Part shown: positions 3,394 to 35,586 of the stretch, in pieces
Layout of the letters: every line of letters begins with the position of its first letter
Position numbering within the stretch: the stretch's first letter is position 1
Source of the DNA: Kofleriaceae bacterium
GTDB taxonomy: Bacteria; Myxococcota_A; Polyangia; Haliangiales; Haliangiaceae
Length of the DNA: 50,723 bases
Assembly (NCBI GenBank): GCA_018058095.1
Contig: JAGPCO010000050.1
Span: 1-50,723, forward strand
Direction: 5' to 3'
Made by a program: the position numbers and the translations under genes
Notes under the pieces: generated by a model
Told to the model about the DNA's origin: nothing
The model's database searches: none
The model's input: only the letters and a program-made list of their open reading frames with translations

Positions 3394-4134
3394 CTACTTG
3401 CCGTCGGCGGGGGCGTCGTCGTCGTCGTCGTCGCCGACGTCGGCGTTGATCTCGTCTTCGTCGAGATCATCGTCGTCGAGCTCCGGCGCCTCCGGCGGCT
3501 TCTCGCCACGGTTCTTGGCCGCGGCCAGCGCCTGCTGGTGGGCGATGATGGCCTGCTTGCGCATCTCCTGGGCCTTGCGCACCACGTTGGGCCGGGGCGA
3601 GATGATCATGATCATCCGGCGGCCTTCCATGTTGGGCGTGACCTCGACCGTGGCCAGGTCGTTGGTCGCCTCGACCACCCGGTTGAGCACGGCCATGCCG
3701 GTCTGCGGGTGGGTGATCTCGCGGCCGCGGAACACGACGGCGAGCCGGACCTTGTTGCCGGTCTCGAGGAACCGGCGGACATGCTTCACCTTGAAGTCCA
3801 TGTCGTGGCCCTCGGTCTTGGGCCGGAACTTGATCTCCTTGGTCTCCGACGTCGACGAGTGCTTGCGGGCCTGCTGCTTCTTCTTGGCCTGCTCGTACTT
3901 GTACTTGCCGTAGTCCATGATCCGGCACACCGGCGGGAAGGCGCGGGGCGAGATCTCGACGAGATCGAGCCCGCGCTCTTCGGCCAGGCGCAGCGCCTCG
4001 TGGGTCGGCAGGACCCCGAGCTGCTCCCCCTCGTCGGCGACGACGCGGACCTCGGGGACGCGGATGCGATGGTTGATGCGGAGACCGGTCTGCGGGCGAC
4101 GGCGATCGTCGCGACCCATGGGACGGCCGTTCAT
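3394..4134 (-). CDS. infC: Translation initiation factor IF-3 with acidic C-terminal extension
   Basis: IF-3 binds the 30S subunit and proofreads start-codon/initiator-tRNA pairing. IF3-N spans about residues 17-86 (RINHRIRVPEVRVV, PPVCRIMDYGKYKYEQ) and IF3-C about 93-178 (EIKFRPKTEGHD, RFRGRE-like VVFRGREITHP, EGRRMIMIISPRP). At 246 aa it is longer than the usual ~180: a charged tail (about 200-246) rich in Asp/Glu follows. The ATG at 4134 has no Shine-Dalgarno and overlaps the stop of a possible 9-codon upstream ORF. It is first gene of the infC-rpmI-rplT-pheST cluster. Confidence 0.97.
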   Translation of the reverse strand: MNGRPMGRDDRRRPQTGLRINHRIRVPEVRVVADEGEQLGVLPTHEALRLAEERGLDLVEISPRAFPPVCRIMDYGKYKYEQAKKKQQARKHSSTSETKEIKFRPKTEGHDMDFKVKHVRRFLETGNKVRLAVVFRGREITHPQTGMAVLNRVVEATNDLATVEVTPNMEGRRMIMIISPRPNVVRKAQEMRKQAIIAHQQALAAAKNRGEKPPEAPELDDDDLDEDEINADVGDDDDDDAPADGK

Positions 4135-4160
4135 GGCGTAGCAGTGCTCAGCGAATGCAT
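4131..4160 (-). CDS. Possible infC leader peptide (9 codons)
   Basis: ATG at 4160 encodes MHSLSTATP and stops with a TGA that overlaps the infC ATG (ATGA). A GAGGAG lies 13 nt upstream, while infC itself lacks a ribosome-binding site, so coupled translation is possible. It is very short and could be chance. Confidence 0.3.
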   Translation of the reverse strand: MHSLSTATP

Positions 4161-4247
4161 TGGTTCAGCGTGGCTCCTCGTAGGGGGCCCTGTTGTACCC
4201 CGAACCGACGGCGGATTGTCCAGCGGAACCGGCCGGGAACAGCCGCG

Positions 4248-4862
4248 TCAGACCAGCCACCAGGCCGCCAGGTTGACGCCGATCACCACCAGCACCGGCC
4301 ACCAGCGCGGGGCCGGCACCAGCGCCGGCAGCCGCTGCGCCAGCTCGGTCTCGATCCCGGCCAGCTGCGCCGCCGACGCGCCCTGCCCGCGCGCCGCCGC
4401 CACCAGCGTGGTGAGCGGGGCCAGCGCCTGCCGTACCGCGCCGAGGCCGAGCAGGCGCCGGATCGGCCACGGCAGATCGCTCGTCCACGACGACCGCGTG
4501 ACGGCCGCGCGACCGGGCCCGGCCGCGTCGTCGTCGTGCGGGCCGGGACCGAGCCGGCGGCTGGCGGCGCCGACCACGACCCGGGCCAGCGCCGCCGCCG
4601 CGGTCCGGGCCACGACGCGGGCGGCCCCGAGCAGGCCGGCCTGCCAGGTCAACCAGGCCGCCAGCGCCGGCGCCACGCCGGCCAGCCCGACCAGGCGCAG
4701 CGCGCTGCGGCCGAGGCTGACCTCGTCGGCGCCGCGCACGACGAGGACCAGGTTGACCAGCACCAGCACCAGGCCGACCACGACGGCGAGGGCGACCGCC
4801 AGCACCAGCCGGCGCGCCAGCGGGCCGACCACCTCGCGCGCGGTCGCCCGCCAGTCGGTCAC
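4248..4862 (-). CDS. Putative integral membrane protein, unknown function
   Basis: The 204-aa product is not recognised as a named family. It has a strongly hydrophobic segment at about residues 18-43, a second around 55-75, a polar Asp/Pro-rich middle, and a C-terminal hydrophobic segment (about 185-204, ending LAAWWLV). It stands alone between tRNA-Val and infC, transcribed in their direction. Codon use matches neighbouring genes, with strong G/C at third positions, which supports coding. A second frame in the same interval is less protein-like. Confidence 0.6.
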
Positions 4863-25680: not shown

Positions 25681-26844
<1,164 letters not shown>

Positions 26845-26851
26845 GCGCTGC

Positions 26852-27415
26852 TTACTGCGACACCCGCTCGACGTACTCGTGGGTGCGAGTGTCGATGCGG
26901 ATGGTGTCGCCGATCTTGATGAAGAGCGGGACCGCGATCTCGGCGCCGGTCTCGACCGTGGCCGGCTTGGTCACGTTGCCGCTGGTGTCGCCGCGCACGC
27001 CCGGCTCCGACGCCGTGACCTTGAGCTGGACGAAGGTCGGCATGCTGACGTCGACCGGCCGCTCGTTGAAGAACAGCACCGTACACGGCATGTTGTCCTT
27101 CATCAGGTCGTGGTTGGCGCCGACCATCGACTTCGACACCGACACCTGCTCGTAGCTCGACTGGTCCATGAACACCAGGTCGTCGGCCTCCTTGTAGAGG
27201 AACTGCATCTCGCGCTCCTCGACGTTGGCCGGCTCGAGCTTCTCACCCGAGCGGATGTTCATCTCCTTGGTCGATCCGTTGAGGAGGTTCTTGAACTTGG
27301 TCCGGGTGAAGGCTGCGCCCTTGCCCGGCTTCACGAACTGGAACTCGATGACCGTCCACGGATTGCCGTCCATCAGGACCTTGAGGCCCTTGCGGATATC
27401 GGAGGTGTCGTACAT
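26852..27415 (-). CDS. efp: Elongation factor P
   Basis: Ribosome factor that rescues stalling at polyproline; 187 aa, the usual length. It starts MYDTSDIRKGLKV; the tip loop VKPGKGAAF places the modified lysine at K32. The C-terminal OB domain ends GDTIRIDTRTHEYVERVSQ. Immediately followed by epmA, matching a beta-lysylation type. TCGACA-N18-TAAGCA ends 7 nt before the ATG, suggesting a short or absent leader. Confidence 0.97.
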   Translation of the reverse strand: MYDTSDIRKGLKVLMDGNPWTVIEFQFVKPGKGAAFTRTKFKNLLNGSTKEMNIRSGEKLEPANVEEREMQFLYKEADDLVFMDQSSYEQVSVSKSMVGANHDLMKDNMPCTVLFFNERPVDVSMPTFVQLKVTASEPGVRGDTSGNVTKPATVETGAEIAVPLFIKIGDTIRIDTRTHEYVERVSQ

Positions 27416-28510: not shown

Positions 28511-28981
28511 GTGAGGTTGTCAACCAAGACCCGGTACGGCGTACGAGCGCTGTTCGACCTCGCCTACCACGGCGAGGTCGGCGCCGGCCAGGATGCCAGC
28601 TCGGCCCAGGCCAAGGACATCGCCCGGCGCCAGCACATCCCGCTGCGGTACCTCGAGCAGGTGTTCCAGGACCTGCGCAAGGCCGGGCTGGTCGACTCCA
28701 AGCGCGGCCCGCGCGGGGGCTACACGCTCCGGCGTGATCCGGCCGAGATCTCGCTCGGCGACATCGTGCGCGCGCTGCAGGGGCCGATCGAGGACCTGTT
28801 CTCGACCGAGGACGAGCGGCCCGGCAGCGAGCCGCGCGGGGTGACGGTGGCGCTGTGGCAGGACCTGGCCCGGCACATGCGCGGCTGGTTCGACGGCGTG
28901 ACCTTGCTCGACCTGGTGCAGCGCGCCGAACAGGCCGGGGTGCCGCGTGCCGGCGCCGCGGTGCCGATGTACTTCATCTGA
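28511..28981 (+). CDS. Rrf2-family regulator (CymR-like, lacks Fe-S cysteines)
   Basis: 156 aa from GTG at 28511. The Rrf2 winged helix is clear: RLSTKTRYGVRALFDLA, AKDIARRQHIPLRYLEQV, RGPRGGYTLRRDPAEISLGD. The product has no cysteine at all, so it cannot carry the IscR/NsrR cluster. It therefore resembles CymR-type regulators of cysteine metabolism, which act with CysK and O-acetylserine. cysK begins 21 nt downstream, in agreement. Direct and inverted ATTCCCGG repeats precede the gene. Confidence 0.9.
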   Translation: MRLSTKTRYGVRALFDLAYHGEVGAGQDASSAQAKDIARRQHIPLRYLEQVFQDLRKAGLVDSKRGPRGGYTLRRDPAEISLGDIVRALQGPIEDLFSTEDERPGSEPRGVTVALWQDLARHMRGWFDGVTLLDLVQRAEQAGVPRAGAAVPMYFI

Positions 28982-29002: not shown

Positions 29003-29976
<974 letters not shown>

Positions 29977-29980
<4 letters not shown>

Positions 29981-30687
29981 GCCGCGGCGGCTGCGGTGGC
30001 GAGCTCGTCCTCGTCGGCGCCGGCGGGCTGGGCGGCCCGCTCGCGCTGGTGCTCGGCGCCGGCGGCCACCCCCTGCGCATCTACGACCCCGACGTGGTCG
30101 AGCTGTCGAACCTGCAGCGCCAGGTCCCGTTCACCGCGGCCGACCTCGGCCAGGCCAAGGCCGAGCGCCTGGCCAGCGTGGTGCGGGCCCGCGGCGGCGT
30201 GGCGACCGGCCACGTCGGGCGCTGGACCGCGGCCGAGCCGGCCGCAGGGGTGGCGGTCATCGTCGACGGCAGCGACGACCCGGCGACCAAGTTCGCGGTG
30301 GCGGCGTGGGCGGCCCAGCACGGGGTGGCCTCGGTCATCGCCGGCGTGCTGCGCTACCACGGCACCGTCGTCGCCAGCGCCCCCGGCGCCGGCTGCTATC
30401 GCTGCCTGTTCGAGGCGGCGCCGACCGACGAGCCGAGCTGCGCCGACGCCGGCGTGTTCGGCCCGGCCTGCGGCGTGGTCGCGGCCCACGCCGCCGCGCT
30501 GGCCGCCGCGCTGGCCGCCGGTGATCGCGCCGAGGCCGGCACCGCCTGGTCGTTCCCCGACCTGCGCACCGGCGCGGCACCGCGCCGCCTGCACATCCCG
30601 CCCCGGGCCGGCTGTCCGTGCCTGGCCGCCGCCCCGCTCGTCTCGCTCGCCCCGCCTGCCCCGCCCGCGCTCTCGCCCCAGGAGTAA
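29977..30687 (+). CDS. ThiF/MoeB-family E1-like enzyme, lacks N-terminal Arg motif
   Basis: 236 aa from GTG at 29977 (GTGA overlap with cysK). Adenylating E1 of ubiquitin-like sulfur carriers: ATP loop VGAGGLGG (residues 13-20), IYDPDVVELSNLQRQ, the DGSDDP region, CYRC (Cys140/143) and a C-terminal CPC (213/215) as likely zinc ligands. MoeB/ThiF normally begin with about 25 residues containing RYxRQ, whose Arg reaches the partner's ATP site; here only 8 residues precede the first strand. The next gene encodes a CysO-like carrier, its probable substrate. No rhodanese domain is present. Confidence 0.9.
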
Positions 30688-30689
30688 CC

Positions 30690-30962
30690 ATGGCCACCGT
30701 CCGCATCCCCACCCCGCTGCGCAAGTTCACCGACGGCAAGGAGGCGGTCGTCGCCGCCGGCGCCACCGTCCGCGCCGTGCTCGACGAGCTCGACCGCCTG
30801 CACCCCGGCATCAAGGGCCGGGTCTGCGACGACAGCGGGGCGGTCCGCAAGTTCATCAACCTGTTCGCCGGCGACGAGGACATCCGCCACCTGGGCGGGC
30901 TCGACACGCCGATCGCCGAGGCCACCGAGCTGTCCATCGTCCCGGCCATCGCCGGCGGCTGA
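30690..30962 (+). CDS. cysO: CysO-like sulfur-carrier protein (MoaD/ThiS family)
   Basis: 90 aa ending AIAGG, the di-glycine that is adenylated and thiocarboxylated. The core matches mycobacterial CysO as I recall it: VRIPTPLRKFTDG, RKFINLFAGDEDIR, GGLDTPI, SIVPAIAGG. GGAG lies 5 nt before the ATG and overlaps the E1 stop region. In M. tuberculosis CysO-thiocarboxylate donates sulfur to O-phosphoserine on CysM, and Mec releases cysteine; CysM- and Mec-like genes follow here. Confidence 0.92.
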   Translation: MATVRIPTPLRKFTDGKEAVVAAGATVRAVLDELDRLHPGIKGRVCDDSGAVRKFINLFAGDEDIRHLGGLDTPIAEATELSIVPAIAGG

Positions 30963-30971
30963 ACACGCACC

Positions 30972-31493
30972 ATGCCTCCCGCCGCGACCCCGACGCCCGC
31001 GCTGCGGCCCGACCAGGTCCGTCGCTACGCGCGCCACATCTTGCTGCCCGACGTCGGCGGCGTCGGCCAGGCCCGCCTGCTGGCGGCGACCGTGGCCGTC
31101 GTCGACGGCGACGCCGGCGCGGTCGCGTTCGACTACCTGGCCCGGGCCGGGGTCGGGGCGCTGGTGCTGGTCGGCGATGGCGGCGCGCCGCTCGACGCGG
31201 CGGCGTGCGCGCGCCGGCCGTACCTGCTCGACCCGGCCGGGGCAGCTGGCCAGCCGCGGGCGGCGCTGGTGGCGGCCTGGCTGGCCCAGCTCGGGCCCGA
31301 CGTGACGGTGACCTGGGCGCCACACCCGCCGGCCGGGGTCCCGGTGGCCACGCCCGACGCCGACCTGTCGGTCGACGAGGCGACCGATCCAGCCGAGGTG
31401 CTGCGGGCCGGCGCGCGCGCGGCGATCGCCGTGCTGCACCGGCTCGTCGCGGCCGGCGCCGGGCCCGGAGCTGGGCCCGGAGTCGGGCCATGA
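30972..31493 (+). CDS. Degenerate ThiF/MoeB-like protein (E1 pseudo-subunit candidate)
   Basis: 173 aa. The N-terminus is canonical for MoeB/ThiF: VRRYARHILLPDVGGVGQ then ARLLAATVAVVDGD and AFDYLARAGVGALVLVGDG. The ATP loop GxGGxG is replaced by DGDAGA, and the LSNLQRQ, D-x-x-D and CxxC zinc motifs are absent. It ends in a Gly/Pro tail. It therefore carries the Arg-containing N-terminus missing from the 29977 protein while lacking everything that protein has. It overlaps cysM by ATGA and appears intact, not decayed. Catalysis alone is unlikely; a partner role is inferred. Confidence 0.78.
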   Translation: MPPAATPTPALRPDQVRRYARHILLPDVGGVGQARLLAATVAVVDGDAGAVAFDYLARAGVGALVLVGDGGAPLDAAACARRPYLLDPAGAAGQPRAALVAAWLAQLGPDVTVTWAPHPPAGVPVATPDADLSVDEATDPAEVLRAGARAAIAVLHRLVAAGAGPGAGPGVGP

Positions 31494-32431
31494 TCGTGAG
31501 CCGCCCACAGGCGGCCACCTCGGTGGTCGACCTCATCGGCAACACGCCGCTCATCCGCCTGCGCTCGGTCGAGCGCCAGGCCGGCACCGGGGCCGAGGTG
31601 TGGGCCAAGGCCGAGTACGACAACCCGGGCGGATCGGTCAAGGACCGGGCCGCGCGCGAGATGATCCAGACCGCCCTCGCCGACGGCCGCCTGGCGCCGG
31701 GCCAGCGCTTGATCGACTCCACCTCGGGCAACACCGGCGTGGCCTACGCGATGATCGGCGCCGCGCTCGGCATCCCGGTCACCCTGGTCATGCCGGCCAA
31801 CGTGTCGGCCGCGCGCAAGCGCATCACCGCCGCGTACGGGGCCGAGCAGATCTTCTCGTCGGAGCTGGAGGGATCCGACGGCGCCATCCGGCTGGTGCGT
31901 GAGCTGGTGGCGCGCGACCCCGACCGCTACTTCTACCCCGACCAGTACGGCAACCCGGCCAACCCGGGCGCCCACACCCGCACCACCGCGCCGGAGATCG
32001 TGACCCAGACCGAGGGCCGGGTCACCCACTTCGTCGCCGGCGTCGGCACCACCGGCACGGTGATGGGCACCGGGCGCGGCCTCAAGCAGCTCGTGCCCGG
32101 GGTGCGGGTGGTCGCGGTCCAGCCCGACGACGCCTGGCACGGGCTCGAGGGGATGAAGCACCTGCCGTCGTCGATCGTGCCGGCCATCTGGCAGCCCGAC
32201 GGCGTCATCGACGAGATCGTGTGGATGCCGACCGACGAGGGCTGGGCGGCGTCGGAGGCGCTGTGCCGCGACGACGGCCTGTTCGTCGGCCACTCGTCGG
32301 GCGCCAACGTGGCCGGGGCGCTGCGGCTGGCGCGCGCGGCCGGCCCGGGCGCGGTGGTGGTCACCATCCTGTGCGACCGCGGCGATCGCTACTTCGCGCC
32401 GATGGCGTGGGACCGGGCCTACCAGTGGTGA
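31490..32431 (+). CDS. cysM: Cysteine synthase B / CysM-like
   Basis: 313 aa PLP enzyme, start ATG at 31490 overlapping the previous stop (ATGA). Motifs: SVVDLIGNTPLIRL, NPGGSVKDR (Lys51), STSGNTGVAYAM, VGTTGTVMG, SSGANVAGAL. Beside a CysO-like carrier and Mec-like protease it most likely uses CysO-thiocarboxylate and O-phosphoserine, as in Mycobacterium. Substrate choice was not verified from specificity residues; O-acetylserine use remains possible. A second, different synthase (cysK) lies in the same operon. Confidence 0.92.
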   Translation: MIVSRPQAATSVVDLIGNTPLIRLRSVERQAGTGAEVWAKAEYDNPGGSVKDRAAREMIQTALADGRLAPGQRLIDSTSGNTGVAYAMIGAALGIPVTLVMPANVSAARKRITAAYGAEQIFSSELEGSDGAIRLVRELVARDPDRYFYPDQYGNPANPGAHTRTTAPEIVTQTEGRVTHFVAGVGTTGTVMGTGRGLKQLVPGVRVVAVQPDDAWHGLEGMKHLPSSIVPAIWQPDGVIDEIVWMPTDEGWAASEALCRDDGLFVGHSSGANVAGALRLARAAGPGAVVVTILCDRGDRYFAPMAWDRAYQW

Positions 32432-32439
32432 CCCCAGCC

Positions 32440-32949
32440 ATGCCGGTGCCGGTGCACCTGCCGGCCGCGCTGCTGCACGTGGTGGCGGCCGAGGCGCGCG
32501 CCGCCTTCCCGGCCGAGTGCTGCGGCTGGCTGGTCGGCGATCGCGCCGACGCCGCGCTCGCCGCCCACGCCGTGCGGGCCTGCCGCAACGCCCAGCTCGA
32601 CGGCGGCGCCGGCGCCGATCACCCGACCGCGCCCGAGCGCGGGGCCGACACCGCCTACGTCATCGCCGGCGACGATCTGCTGGCGTTCGCGCGCGGCTTC
32701 GACGCCGCCACGCCGCCGGTGGTGATCTATCACTCGCACCCCAACGGCCGGGCCTACTTCTCGGCGACCGACCGTGCGGTGGCGCTCAGCCCGTGGGGCG
32801 ACGGCCCGGCCTACCCGGTCCAGCACCTGGTGGTCGGGGTCAGCGCGAGCGCGGGCGGCCCGGTGGTGACCGAGATGGCGCTGTTCGCCTGGTCCGACCA
32901 GCACGCCGACTTCGTCGAGCTGGCGCGCTGGGCCGGGATCGAGCCATGA
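32440..32949 (+). CDS. mec: Mec-like JAMM metalloprotease (CysO-cysteine hydrolase)
   Basis: 169 aa MPN+/JAMM protein. Glu26 (AECCG) and HSHPNGRAYFSATD (His98, His100, then 10 residues, Asp111) form the complete zinc motif E...HxHx10D. VVIYHSH is as in mycobacterial Mec, which frees cysteine from CysO. ATG at 32440 chosen; a GTG at 32428 would add four residues and give a GTGA overlap with cysM. It overlaps the next gene by ATGA. Confidence 0.9.
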   Translation: MPVPVHLPAALLHVVAAEARAAFPAECCGWLVGDRADAALAAHAVRACRNAQLDGGAGADHPTAPERGADTAYVIAGDDLLAFARGFDAATPPVVIYHSHPNGRAYFSATDRAVALSPWGDGPAYPVQHLVVGVSASAGGPVVTEMALFAWSDQHADFVELARWAGIEP

Positions 32950-33275
32950 CCGCGGCCGTGACCACCGTGCGCTTCGCCATCGTCGTCGCTCGCGCCGACG
33001 ACTGGCCGACCGCACGGGCGCTCGGGCTGGCGGCGCGCCGGCAGGACCACGAGGTGGCGCTGTTCGTGATGGCCGACGCCGTCGGCGCCCTGGCCGGTGA
33101 TGGGCCGGGGCGTGAGGCCCTGCTCGACGCCGACTGCGCGCTGGTGGCGTGCGCGACCTCGGCCCACGGCCTGGGCCTGGGGCCGGACCAGCTGGGCGAC
33201 GAGGTCCTCCTCGGCAGCCAGGACGACCACGCCGCCATCCTGGCCCGGGCCGATCGCGTGGTGGCGCTGACGTGA
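32946..33275 (+). CDS. DsrE/TusD-like protein
   Basis: 109 aa, ATGA overlap with mec. DsrE-fold pattern: VRFAIVVARADDW, RRQDHEVALFVMADAVGAL, then ALVACATSAHGLG, whose Cys sits where TusD/DsrE carry the persulfide, and ADRVVALT at the end. DsrE-family proteins relay sulfane sulfur. In this operon it could supply sulfur for CysO thiocarboxylation; this is inference. Confidence 0.75.
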   Translation: MTAAVTTVRFAIVVARADDWPTARALGLAARRQDHEVALFVMADAVGALAGDGPGREALLDADCALVACATSAHGLGLGPDQLGDEVLLGSQDDHAAILARADRVVALT

Positions 33276-33547
33276 GCGCGGCCGAGGCTCCGCCCGGGCC
33301 CATCGACGCCGCCGTGGTGGTGGTGTGCCGGGCGCCGGCCCGCGTCGCCGAGGCGGTGCGGGCCGCGGTCGGGCTCACCCTGCGCGGCGGCTCGGTTGCG
33401 CTGATCGTCGACGATGCCGCGCTGCCGCCCGGGTCGCCGGCCCGGCGCGGCGCCGACACCCTGCGCCTGCTCGGCCACGCCGTGGTCGGGCCAGGCGCAC
33501 TGGCCGCGACCCTGGCCCGGGCCCGCGCGGTCGAGGTGTGGACGTGA
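33272..33547 (+). CDS. Small DsrF/TusC-like protein
   Basis: 91 aa, GTGA overlaps at both ends. AAVVVVCRAPARVAEAVRAA, then LTLRGGSVALIVDDAALPPG and a C-terminal AVEVWT fit a short DsrE/DsrF-type alpha-beta fold, similar in order to TusC. Sequence identity to TusC looks low, so family is tentative. Its position between the DsrE-like and TusA genes supports a sulfur-relay role. Confidence 0.6.
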   Translation: MSAAEAPPGPIDAAVVVVCRAPARVAEAVRAAVGLTLRGGSVALIVDDAALPPGSPARRGADTLRLLGHAVVGPGALAATLARARAVEVWT

Positions 33548-33747: not shown

Positions 33748-33757
33748 CGTGCGCGCC

Positions 33758-33991
33758 ATGACCGTGCCGGTGGTGCAGCTCGACCTGACCGGCGAGGTGT
33801 GCCCGTTCACCTTCGTGCGCACCAAGCTGGCCCTCGAGCCCCTGCCGGCCGGGGTGGTGGTGCGGGTGGTGGTCGACCACCCGGCGGCGGCGCGCAACGT
33901 GCCGCGCAGCGCCGCGGAGTGGGGCCAGGACGTGCTGGCGGTGCGGGCCGAGCCGGGCGGCTGGGTCATCGTCGTGCGCCGGCGCGGCTGA
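33758..33991 (+). CDS. tusA: TusA-family sulfurtransferase
   Basis: 77 aa. VQLDLTGEVCPFTFVRTKLALE carries the TusA/SirA active-site Cys-Pro, with CPFT in place of the usual CPxP. The beta strands VVVRVVVDHP and GGWVIVVRRRG complete the two-layer fold. TusA proteins pass persulfide sulfur between partners. It closes the row of small sulfur-relay genes, 67 nt before larE. A GTG at 33749 is an alternative start. Confidence 0.85.
   Translation: MTVPVVQLDLTGEVCPFTFVRTKLALEPLPAGVVVRVVVDHPAAARNVPRSAAEWGQDVLAVRAEPGGWVIVVRRRG

Positions 33992-34057: not shown

Positions 34058-35586
<1,529 letters not shown>

Follow-up and report, generated by a model that had tools for sequence, protein, structure and literature searches.

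A truncated E1 and an arm-bearing pseudo-E1 encoded on either side of a CysO-type carrier gene: a probable heterodimeric activating enzyme in bacteria

The window analysed here, a stretch of 50,723 nucleotides from a Kofleriaceae bacterium, encodes two E1-like proteins, hereafter tE1 (truncated) and pE1 (pseudo), which probably form a heterodimeric E1 for a CysO-type sulfur carrier: tE1 would be the active subunit, and pE1 an inactive subunit that donates an arginine finger to it. As far as sequence and gene linkage can tell, the plan of an active subunit without an arm and an inactive subunit with one fits this pair, which many myxobacteria appear to share. We also lean towards regarding tE1–pE1 as an independently evolved bacterial counterpart of the eukaryotic SAE1–UBA2, in which one subunit would have been whittled down to a finger-donating scaffold and lost in about four lineages.

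RESULTS

The two E1-like genes belong to a sulfur-carrier operon

A CysO-type sulfur-carrier operon is present in the window, with the order Rrf2–CysK–tE1–CysO–pE1–CysM–JAB–DsrE–TusA–LarE (Table 1), a small conserved protein (orf91) sitting between DsrE and TusA. The GTG start codon of tE1 (29977) lies inside the CysK stop, the carrier gene begins 2 bases 3' of tE1, pE1 begins 9 bases 3' of the carrier, and the start of CysM overlaps the stop of pE1 by 4 bp. The carrier gene is thus found between the two E1-like genes, where an earlier sequence-only reading of this DNA had placed it.

Table 1. Features of the operon, with positions in the window
Feature	Position	Strand	Basis
Rrf2-type regulator, operon head	28511..28981	+	Pfam Rrf2 115.6 bits
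CysK, cysteine synthase A	29003..29980	+	TIGR01139 405.9 bits, cut-off 350.95 exceeded
tE1, truncated ThiF/MoeB E1-like subunit, catalytically intact by sequence, without RYxR arm	29977..30687	+	Pfam ThiF 118.5 bits
CysO-type ThiS/MoaD sulfur carrier, Gly-Gly end	30690..30962	+	Pfam ThiS 46.1 bits
pE1, pseudo-E1 subunit with RYARH arm, reduced E1 fold (predicted), C-terminal helix	30972..31493	+	Pfam ThiF 26.3 bits
pE1 Arg21 codon, register of MoeB Arg14 / ThiF Arg11 / Tcd1 Arg59	31032..31034	+	alignment and fold offsets
CysM-type cysteine synthase	31490..32431	+	TIGR01138 335.7 bits (below cut-off, 394.2); Pfam PALP 233.4 bits
JAB metalloprotease, Mec+-like position	32440..32949	+	Pfam Prok-JAB 62.7 bits
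DsrE-like protein	32946..33275	+	Pfam DsrE 31.7 bits
orf91, small conserved protein	33272..33547	+	no family above cut-off; near the same place in relatives
TusA sulfurtransferase	33749..33991	+	Pfam TusA 68.3 bits
LarE, ATP-dependent sacrificial sulfur transferase	34058..34933	+	TIGR00268 277.3 bits, cut-off 150 exceeded

The PDB match of the carrier is 3dwg_C (cfp10A, E 1.3e-18), which we take to be CysO of M. tuberculosis. The chains nearest to CysM are annotated as O-acetylserine sulfhydrylase B / cysteine synthase B (2jc3, E 2.8e-69), with the O-phosphoserine sulfhydrylase 3dki behind them (E 2.7e-53), and a single-sequence PDB search with JAB returned 2kcq alone (E 0.019). No family of the Pfam and TIGR profiles matched orf91 above cut-off; in most of the loci where it was seen, it lies between DsrE and TusA. 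The genome also encodes, on another contig, a full-length rhodanese–ThiF E1 with its own RYSRH arm. On the minus strand of the window (25684–27415), EF-P adjoins a class II lysyl-tRNA-synthetase-like protein, presumably of the EpmA kind.

tE1 retains the catalytic features of an E1 and lacks the N-terminal arm

tE1 consists of 236 residues forming one ThiF domain, which scores 118.5 bits against a gathering score of 28.1 and covers positions 24–220 of the 238 of the profile. Its motifs comprise the ATP loop G14-A-G-G-L-G19 (codons 30016–30033), SNLQRQ, K61, D100, C140/C143, C155 and C213. Residues G14/G16/G17, R48, K61, D100, C140 and C143 are found in 87 of 87 aligned tE1s, and C155 in 85 of them; the equivalents of MoeB Arg73, Lys86 and Asp130 (residue names from the available part of PMC12355090) were matched by motif. 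The GAGGLG loop, LSNLQRQ and the zinc Cys ligands, all noted in the sequence-only reading, are therefore retained. The AlphaFold2 model of tE1, computed with 87 aligned relatives, has a pLDDT of 91.9 and matches UBA3 (1tt5_D, Z 26.7) and UBA2 (9dqb_B, Z 25.6), as well as ThiF and MoeB.

The same reading held that tE1 starts only eight residues before the first strand and is devoid of the RYxR segment. Indeed, predicted strand 1 spans residues 9–13, and no RYxR is present in the 50 in-frame codons upstream of the start. The sequence alignment with UBA2 begins at UBA2 residue 19. An RHRRA stretch is visible upstream of tE1, and it corresponds to the overlapping end of CysK read out of frame. In the 16 loci with an adjoining CysK (L103 excluded), the distance from the CysK stop to the first matched tE1 residue ranges from -1 to 23 codons. 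This short spacing, together with the absence of an upstream RYxR, led us to reject a mis-called tE1 start. Similarly, a pattern search found no RYxR arm in the 113 truncated loci described below (L158 and L244 being judged by eye). Neither tE1 nor pE1 gives a rhodanese match in Pfam.

pE1 is a degenerate E1 that carries the arm

The N-terminal arm of pE1 reads RRYARHILLPDVGGVGQ. The place of the ATP loop (residues 45–50) is occupied by DGDAGA, and the sequence contains no Cys-x-x-Cys, no catalytic motif and no catalytic cysteine, so the sequence-only reading was accurate for this protein too; its Pfam ThiF score of 26.3 bits falls under the cut-off of 28.1, the match covering profile positions 1–93 of 238.

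Despite this divergence, pE1 is predicted to have a reduced E1 Rossmann-type fold. Its AlphaFold2 model (80 aligned relatives, pLDDT 87.8) aligns over about 145–163 residues with MoeB, ThiF, Uba4, TcdA, SAE1 and NAE1; the matches include ATP-bound MoeB (1jwa_B, VIA Z 15.3, rmsd 2.8, 152 residues), ThiF (1zud_1, Z 15.4), Tcd1 (9hmp_B, Z 12.7) and SAE1/NAE1 (Z 12–14). By sequence, the pE1 profile reaches subunit 1 of the SUMO E1 in the PDB (E 1.3e-4).

The superpositions set the register of the arm. The first aligned residues are pE1 9 on MoeB 2 (1jwa_B), 11 on ThiF 1 (1zud_1), 11 on Tcd1 49 (9hmp_B) and 8 on TcdA 2 (4rdh_A). If the arm is ungapped, these offsets put pE1 Arg21 on residues 14, 11, 59 and 15, respectively, and the same register for Arg21 is seen when the pE1 profile is aligned by sequence with ThiF, from ThiF residue 1 onwards. 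According to the available part of PMC13139853, the arginine fingers are MoeB Arg14, ThiF Arg11 and Tcd1 Arg59, and TcdA carries Gly15 at the finger position.

Fission of a single E1 gene was ruled out as the origin of the pair: tE1 and pE1 both cover profile positions 24–93, which indicates a duplicated E1 with complementary erosion rather than a split one. No open reading frame holding both proteins occurs in the set, i.e. there is no natural tE1–pE1 fusion in it. In one locus (L099), the pE1 frame is 554 codons long and stays open into a long downstream region, which may be either a fused part or a neighbouring gene.

The arm is kept under constraint

Arg21 is present in 78 of 80 aligned pE1s (His replaces it in L081 and L085) and is the most conserved residue of the arm; the first arginine, R18, is found in 71 of the 80. 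The residue after Arg21 is His or Gln in 79 of 80 pE1s, and Gln33 is kept in 76 of 80. By contrast, the columns of the former ATP loop are poorly conserved, with 1.59 bits per column versus 2.55 for the arm and 2.7 for a YLAxAGVG helix. Among congeneric species (11 pE1s and 10 tE1s, the window, L070, L074 and L078 being excluded), pN/pS was 0.23 for the arm, as against 0.61, 0.78 and 0.50 for the three successive stretches that follow, the range for tE1 in the same genus being 0.33–0.48. In these sequences, no other part of the pE1 gene is as constrained as the arm. pE1 is often reduced to about 90–110 residues in family f14, which clusters with named Polyangiaceae, and it retains an xSRQ or RYxRQ arm there; in some members of f14 the arm is cut to xSRQ, the second arginine being kept.

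pE1 accompanies truncated E1s across relatives

We collected loci from 56 relatives, from 377 genomes of the phylum and from a scan of named genomes limited to the best 80 of 492 loci, which gave 278 loci and, together with the window, 157 distinct E1 genes. A pE1 was counted when it lay on the strand of the E1 and no more than 3.2 kb away, and E1 loci were retained when more than 1450 bases followed downstream; 12 loci with 1450 bases or fewer were dropped, six of which show a pE1. The profile used, A3, comprises 80 rows found with a first model, A1; many of these rows come from the loci that were counted, and some scored 13–36 bits with A1 and were included for their position and arm. The pE1 rows of L070, L078, L154 and L182 were left out of A3 (partial or containing unknown bases), and that of L099 was trimmed.

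A pE1 was found beside 101 of 113 truncated E1 loci and 0 of 32 full-length ones, many of the latter with only about 1.7 kb of downstream sequence; because A3 was built from overlapping loci and weakly scoring rows, the count of 101 is not a blind one. These figures follow the reclassification of four loci by eye, the script having returned 99 of 113 and 2 of 32: L158 and L244 were moved to the truncated class (RYxR-like letters precede the gene start), and L251 (LYSRN arm) and L274 (cut by a contig edge) to the full-length class. The complementary pattern described in the sequence-only reading thus recurs in about 100 related loci. Among the best 80 of 492 loci of the named-genome scan, the rows from Hydrogenedentota, Planctomycetota and Nitrospirota are full-length E1s (L274, a Nitrospirota row, being cut at its contig edge), and some rows titled Proteobacteria (e.g. 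L226, L254), a title that may be an old name, have the tE1–pE1 pair.

In a tree built by a quick method, with many weak forks, 31 of the 32 full-length E1s form one group (support 88) that is separate from the truncated ones; the remaining one, L228, lies elsewhere on a long branch. The contrast between the two classes therefore goes back to one or two independent events. Its Fisher value of 1.5e-22 is neither a probability nor independent evidence; a test on independent pairs, of which there were one or two, was uninformative. The evidential weight lies instead in the long retention of pE1 with few losses.

The pairing extends to loci without a carrier. A carrier gene is near 96 of the 113 truncated E1s, and pE1 is kept in 16 of the 17 loci in which none was found between 3.5 kb upstream and 4.5 kb downstream of tE1 (some of these contigs end early). 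The two genes are directly adjacent in 16 cases, 15 from the set of 113 and one from the cut locus L214; in 12 of the 16, a start codon is available for pE1 that overlaps the stop of tE1 by 4 bp. Overlaps of this kind commonly mark partners whose translation is coupled. A mirror-tree analysis of 28 loci gave a weak signal that is not specific to the pair, with a partial r of 0.18 for tE1–pE1 beyond the operon background and of 0.51 for tE1–JAB.

Some truncated E1s have no pE1

Homologues that keep the truncated E1 without the degenerate gene, which the sequence-only reading regarded as telling against the pairing, do exist (12 of 113, four of them examined closely), against 101 paired loci. 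These are L097, L100, L180 and L198 of family f10, with L219 grouping alongside, L163, L170 and L271, L252, L258 and L260, and L216. They are placed among paired loci in the tree, where they require about four changes, and would most simply represent losses of pE1. When seven whole genomes were searched with the profile (six with a pE1-less locus, the seventh, G178, from the same family; one of the seven is a single contig), only full-length E1s and weak hits came up, and no pE1 elsewhere. pE1 is therefore usual and not indispensable. Truncated E1s that persist on their own either work without a finger, in line with what is reported for MoeB and ThiF, or receive one from another E1.

DISCUSSION

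Proposed mechanism

Our reading starts from the anatomy of the two proteins, their conservation and linkage, and the folds predicted for each chain on its own. From these we infer a physical heterodimer, the placement of the finger, a stabilising effect, the chemistry and the sulfur donor, as follows. As sole active subunit, tE1 would bind ATP and the Gly-Gly tail of the carrier and form the carrier acyl-adenylate. pE1 would take the place of the second subunit of MoeB or ThiF, stabilise tE1 and insert its N-terminal arm (RYxRH, with Arg21) into the ATP site of tE1. The charged carrier would then take up sulfur, probably through the linked TusA and DsrE, because tE1 has no rhodanese domain; their linkage makes these two the likely donors. 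The sulfur would be passed to CysM for cysteine synthesis, JAB acting in the release, and LarE may be a further recipient.

The proposal in the sequence-only reading that an active subunit is combined with a pseudo-subunit is strongly, if indirectly, favoured by the pairing (101 of 113 versus 0 of 32), the near invariance of Arg21 (78 of 80), the constraint on the arm, the register given by the folds and the persistence of the pair without a nearby carrier (16 of 17). Support for it is partial, as 12 of 113 truncated E1s do without pE1, which speaks against strict dependence.

How pE1 contributes can be read differently. It could be a structural or regulatory partner, acting on stability, carrier specificity or contact with CysM or JAB, whose arm serves dimer packing rather than catalysis. 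The available part of PMC13139853 reports that the finger is non-essential in MoeB and ThiF and that R59A has little effect in Tcd1, which speaks against a strict need for the arm, and that Tcd2 requires Tcd1 for solubility; the YLAxAGVG helix is as conserved as the arm, and two pE1s have His for Arg21. Against a role confined to packing, Arg21 is the most conserved residue of the arm and persists in proteins that have lost the Arg-Tyr before it. We therefore consider this account unlikely, though credible.

Other alternatives question the partnership itself. The full-length E1 of the genome could do the job of tE1 and pE1, and pE1 might pair with this rhodanese–ThiF protein, or with another E1, rather than with tE1. 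Such a pairing we regard as very improbable, since pE1 stands beside truncated E1s and beside none of the 32 full-length ones (with the short downstream sequence of many of them), and since 16 loci have tE1 and pE1 directly side by side, mostly with an overlap. Still harder to believe is that pE1 is a functionless, decaying, pseudogene-like duplicate: its rapid divergence outside the arm, its shrinkage in f14 and its losses in about four lineages would be compatible with decay, but the arm pN/pS of 0.23, the confidently predicted fold (pLDDT 87.8) and the retention of frame and position in 101 of 113 loci within a single phylum speak against it. A finger-donating pseudo-subunit paired with tE1 remains the reading that we favour.

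Comparison with known E1 systems

Both SAE1 and NAE1 supply an arginine from their N terminus. In the heterodimeric E1s to which they belong, SAE1–UBA2 for SUMO and NAE1–UBA3 for NEDD8, one adenylation subunit is active and the other inactive (PMC12355090, available part). The likeness extends to both partners, pE1 matching SAE1 in the profile search and both SAE1 and NAE1 in fold, and tE1 matching UBA2/UBA3; unlike the eukaryotic enzymes, however, tE1 has no second catalytic-cysteine domain and no ubiquitin-fold domain, and the carrier is of the CysO type. In the absence of these extra domains, tE1–pE1 is not a member of the canonical eukaryotic E1s, and the common plan is most simply explained by convergence.

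A further parallel is yeast Tcd1–Tcd2, in which an inactive ThiF-type subunit gives its Arg59 finger to the active one and receives none in return; that pair is a single eukaryotic case, acts on tRNA ct6A and has a further C-terminal domain in both subunits (PMC13139853, available part). With the MoeB and ThiF homodimers, tE1 shares the catalytic residues and pE1 the arm, but both subunits of these enzymes bind ATP and carrier (PMC12355090, in the part available), whereas here the features are distributed over two genes.

At the level of the pathway, the closest likeness is to the mycobacterial CysO–CysM–Mec+ system, with which the window shares CysO, a CysM-type synthase and JAB, here in one operon; as described in the available part of PMC3227635, that system has a single rhodanese-fused MoeZR, in place of which two small E1-type proteins are found here. 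From gene content, the window is best accounted for as a putative pathway of the CysO–CysM–Mec+ kind in which tE1–pE1 would replace MoeZR. Operons 4b–4d of Iyer et al. 2006 (PMC1779556), with ThiS, E1, JAB and cysteine synthase, belong to the same class of neighbourhood, but in the part of that source available the E1 of 4b and 4c is rhodanese-fused, 4d lists no E1, and no degenerate second E1 appears. Likewise, none of the matches listed in our literature search, as far as their text was available, describes a bacterial pseudo-E1 subunit.

Canonical eukaryotic E1s combine one live and one dead adenylation half, and the bacterial MoeB and ThiF are symmetric homodimers (PMC12355090, available part). 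If our reading is true, the live/dead asymmetry can arise outside the eukaryotic lineage. Relatives in which pE1 is complete, shortened or absent would then offer a natural series on the role of an inactive half and of its arginine; they include the named strains Sorangium cellulosum So ce26 and Minicystis rosea DSM 24000. For annotation, pE1 accounts for a gene that is easily missed, as it scores under the ThiF cut-off.

Variation of the neighbourhood

In the genus of the window, none of the 14 loci (L065–L078) has CysK or CysM beside the pair, so the link between the two E1-like genes and cysteine synthase is not obligatory. Twelve of them reach JAB and LarE, the other two being cut short; DsrE, orf91 and TusA lie between in seven of the twelve and are absent in five. 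This gene order suggests that sulfur may be relayed to LarE and not to cysteine. In L179, L186, L226 and L255, TusA lies between tE1 and pE1, which may be a further sign that TusA serves the pair.

Several loci depart from the window in other ways. In L079 (G017, about 3880–4821, minus strand), tE1 and the CysO carrier share a single open frame, which contains an ATG where the carrier begins; the carrier ends in GGN. Other carriers run past Gly-Gly by a few residues (e.g. AGGSGA, AGGAQR; L248, L143, L146, L040, L208, L210 and others), so that exposure of the tail would require a protease, for which the linked JAB is a possible candidate. Finally, L095, L098, L101, L103, L252 and L258 encode a third PALP-fold protein of about 430 residues between tE1 and the carrier; in L103, L252 and L258 it has, by eye, a zinc-ribbon-like start and the look of a threonine synthase.
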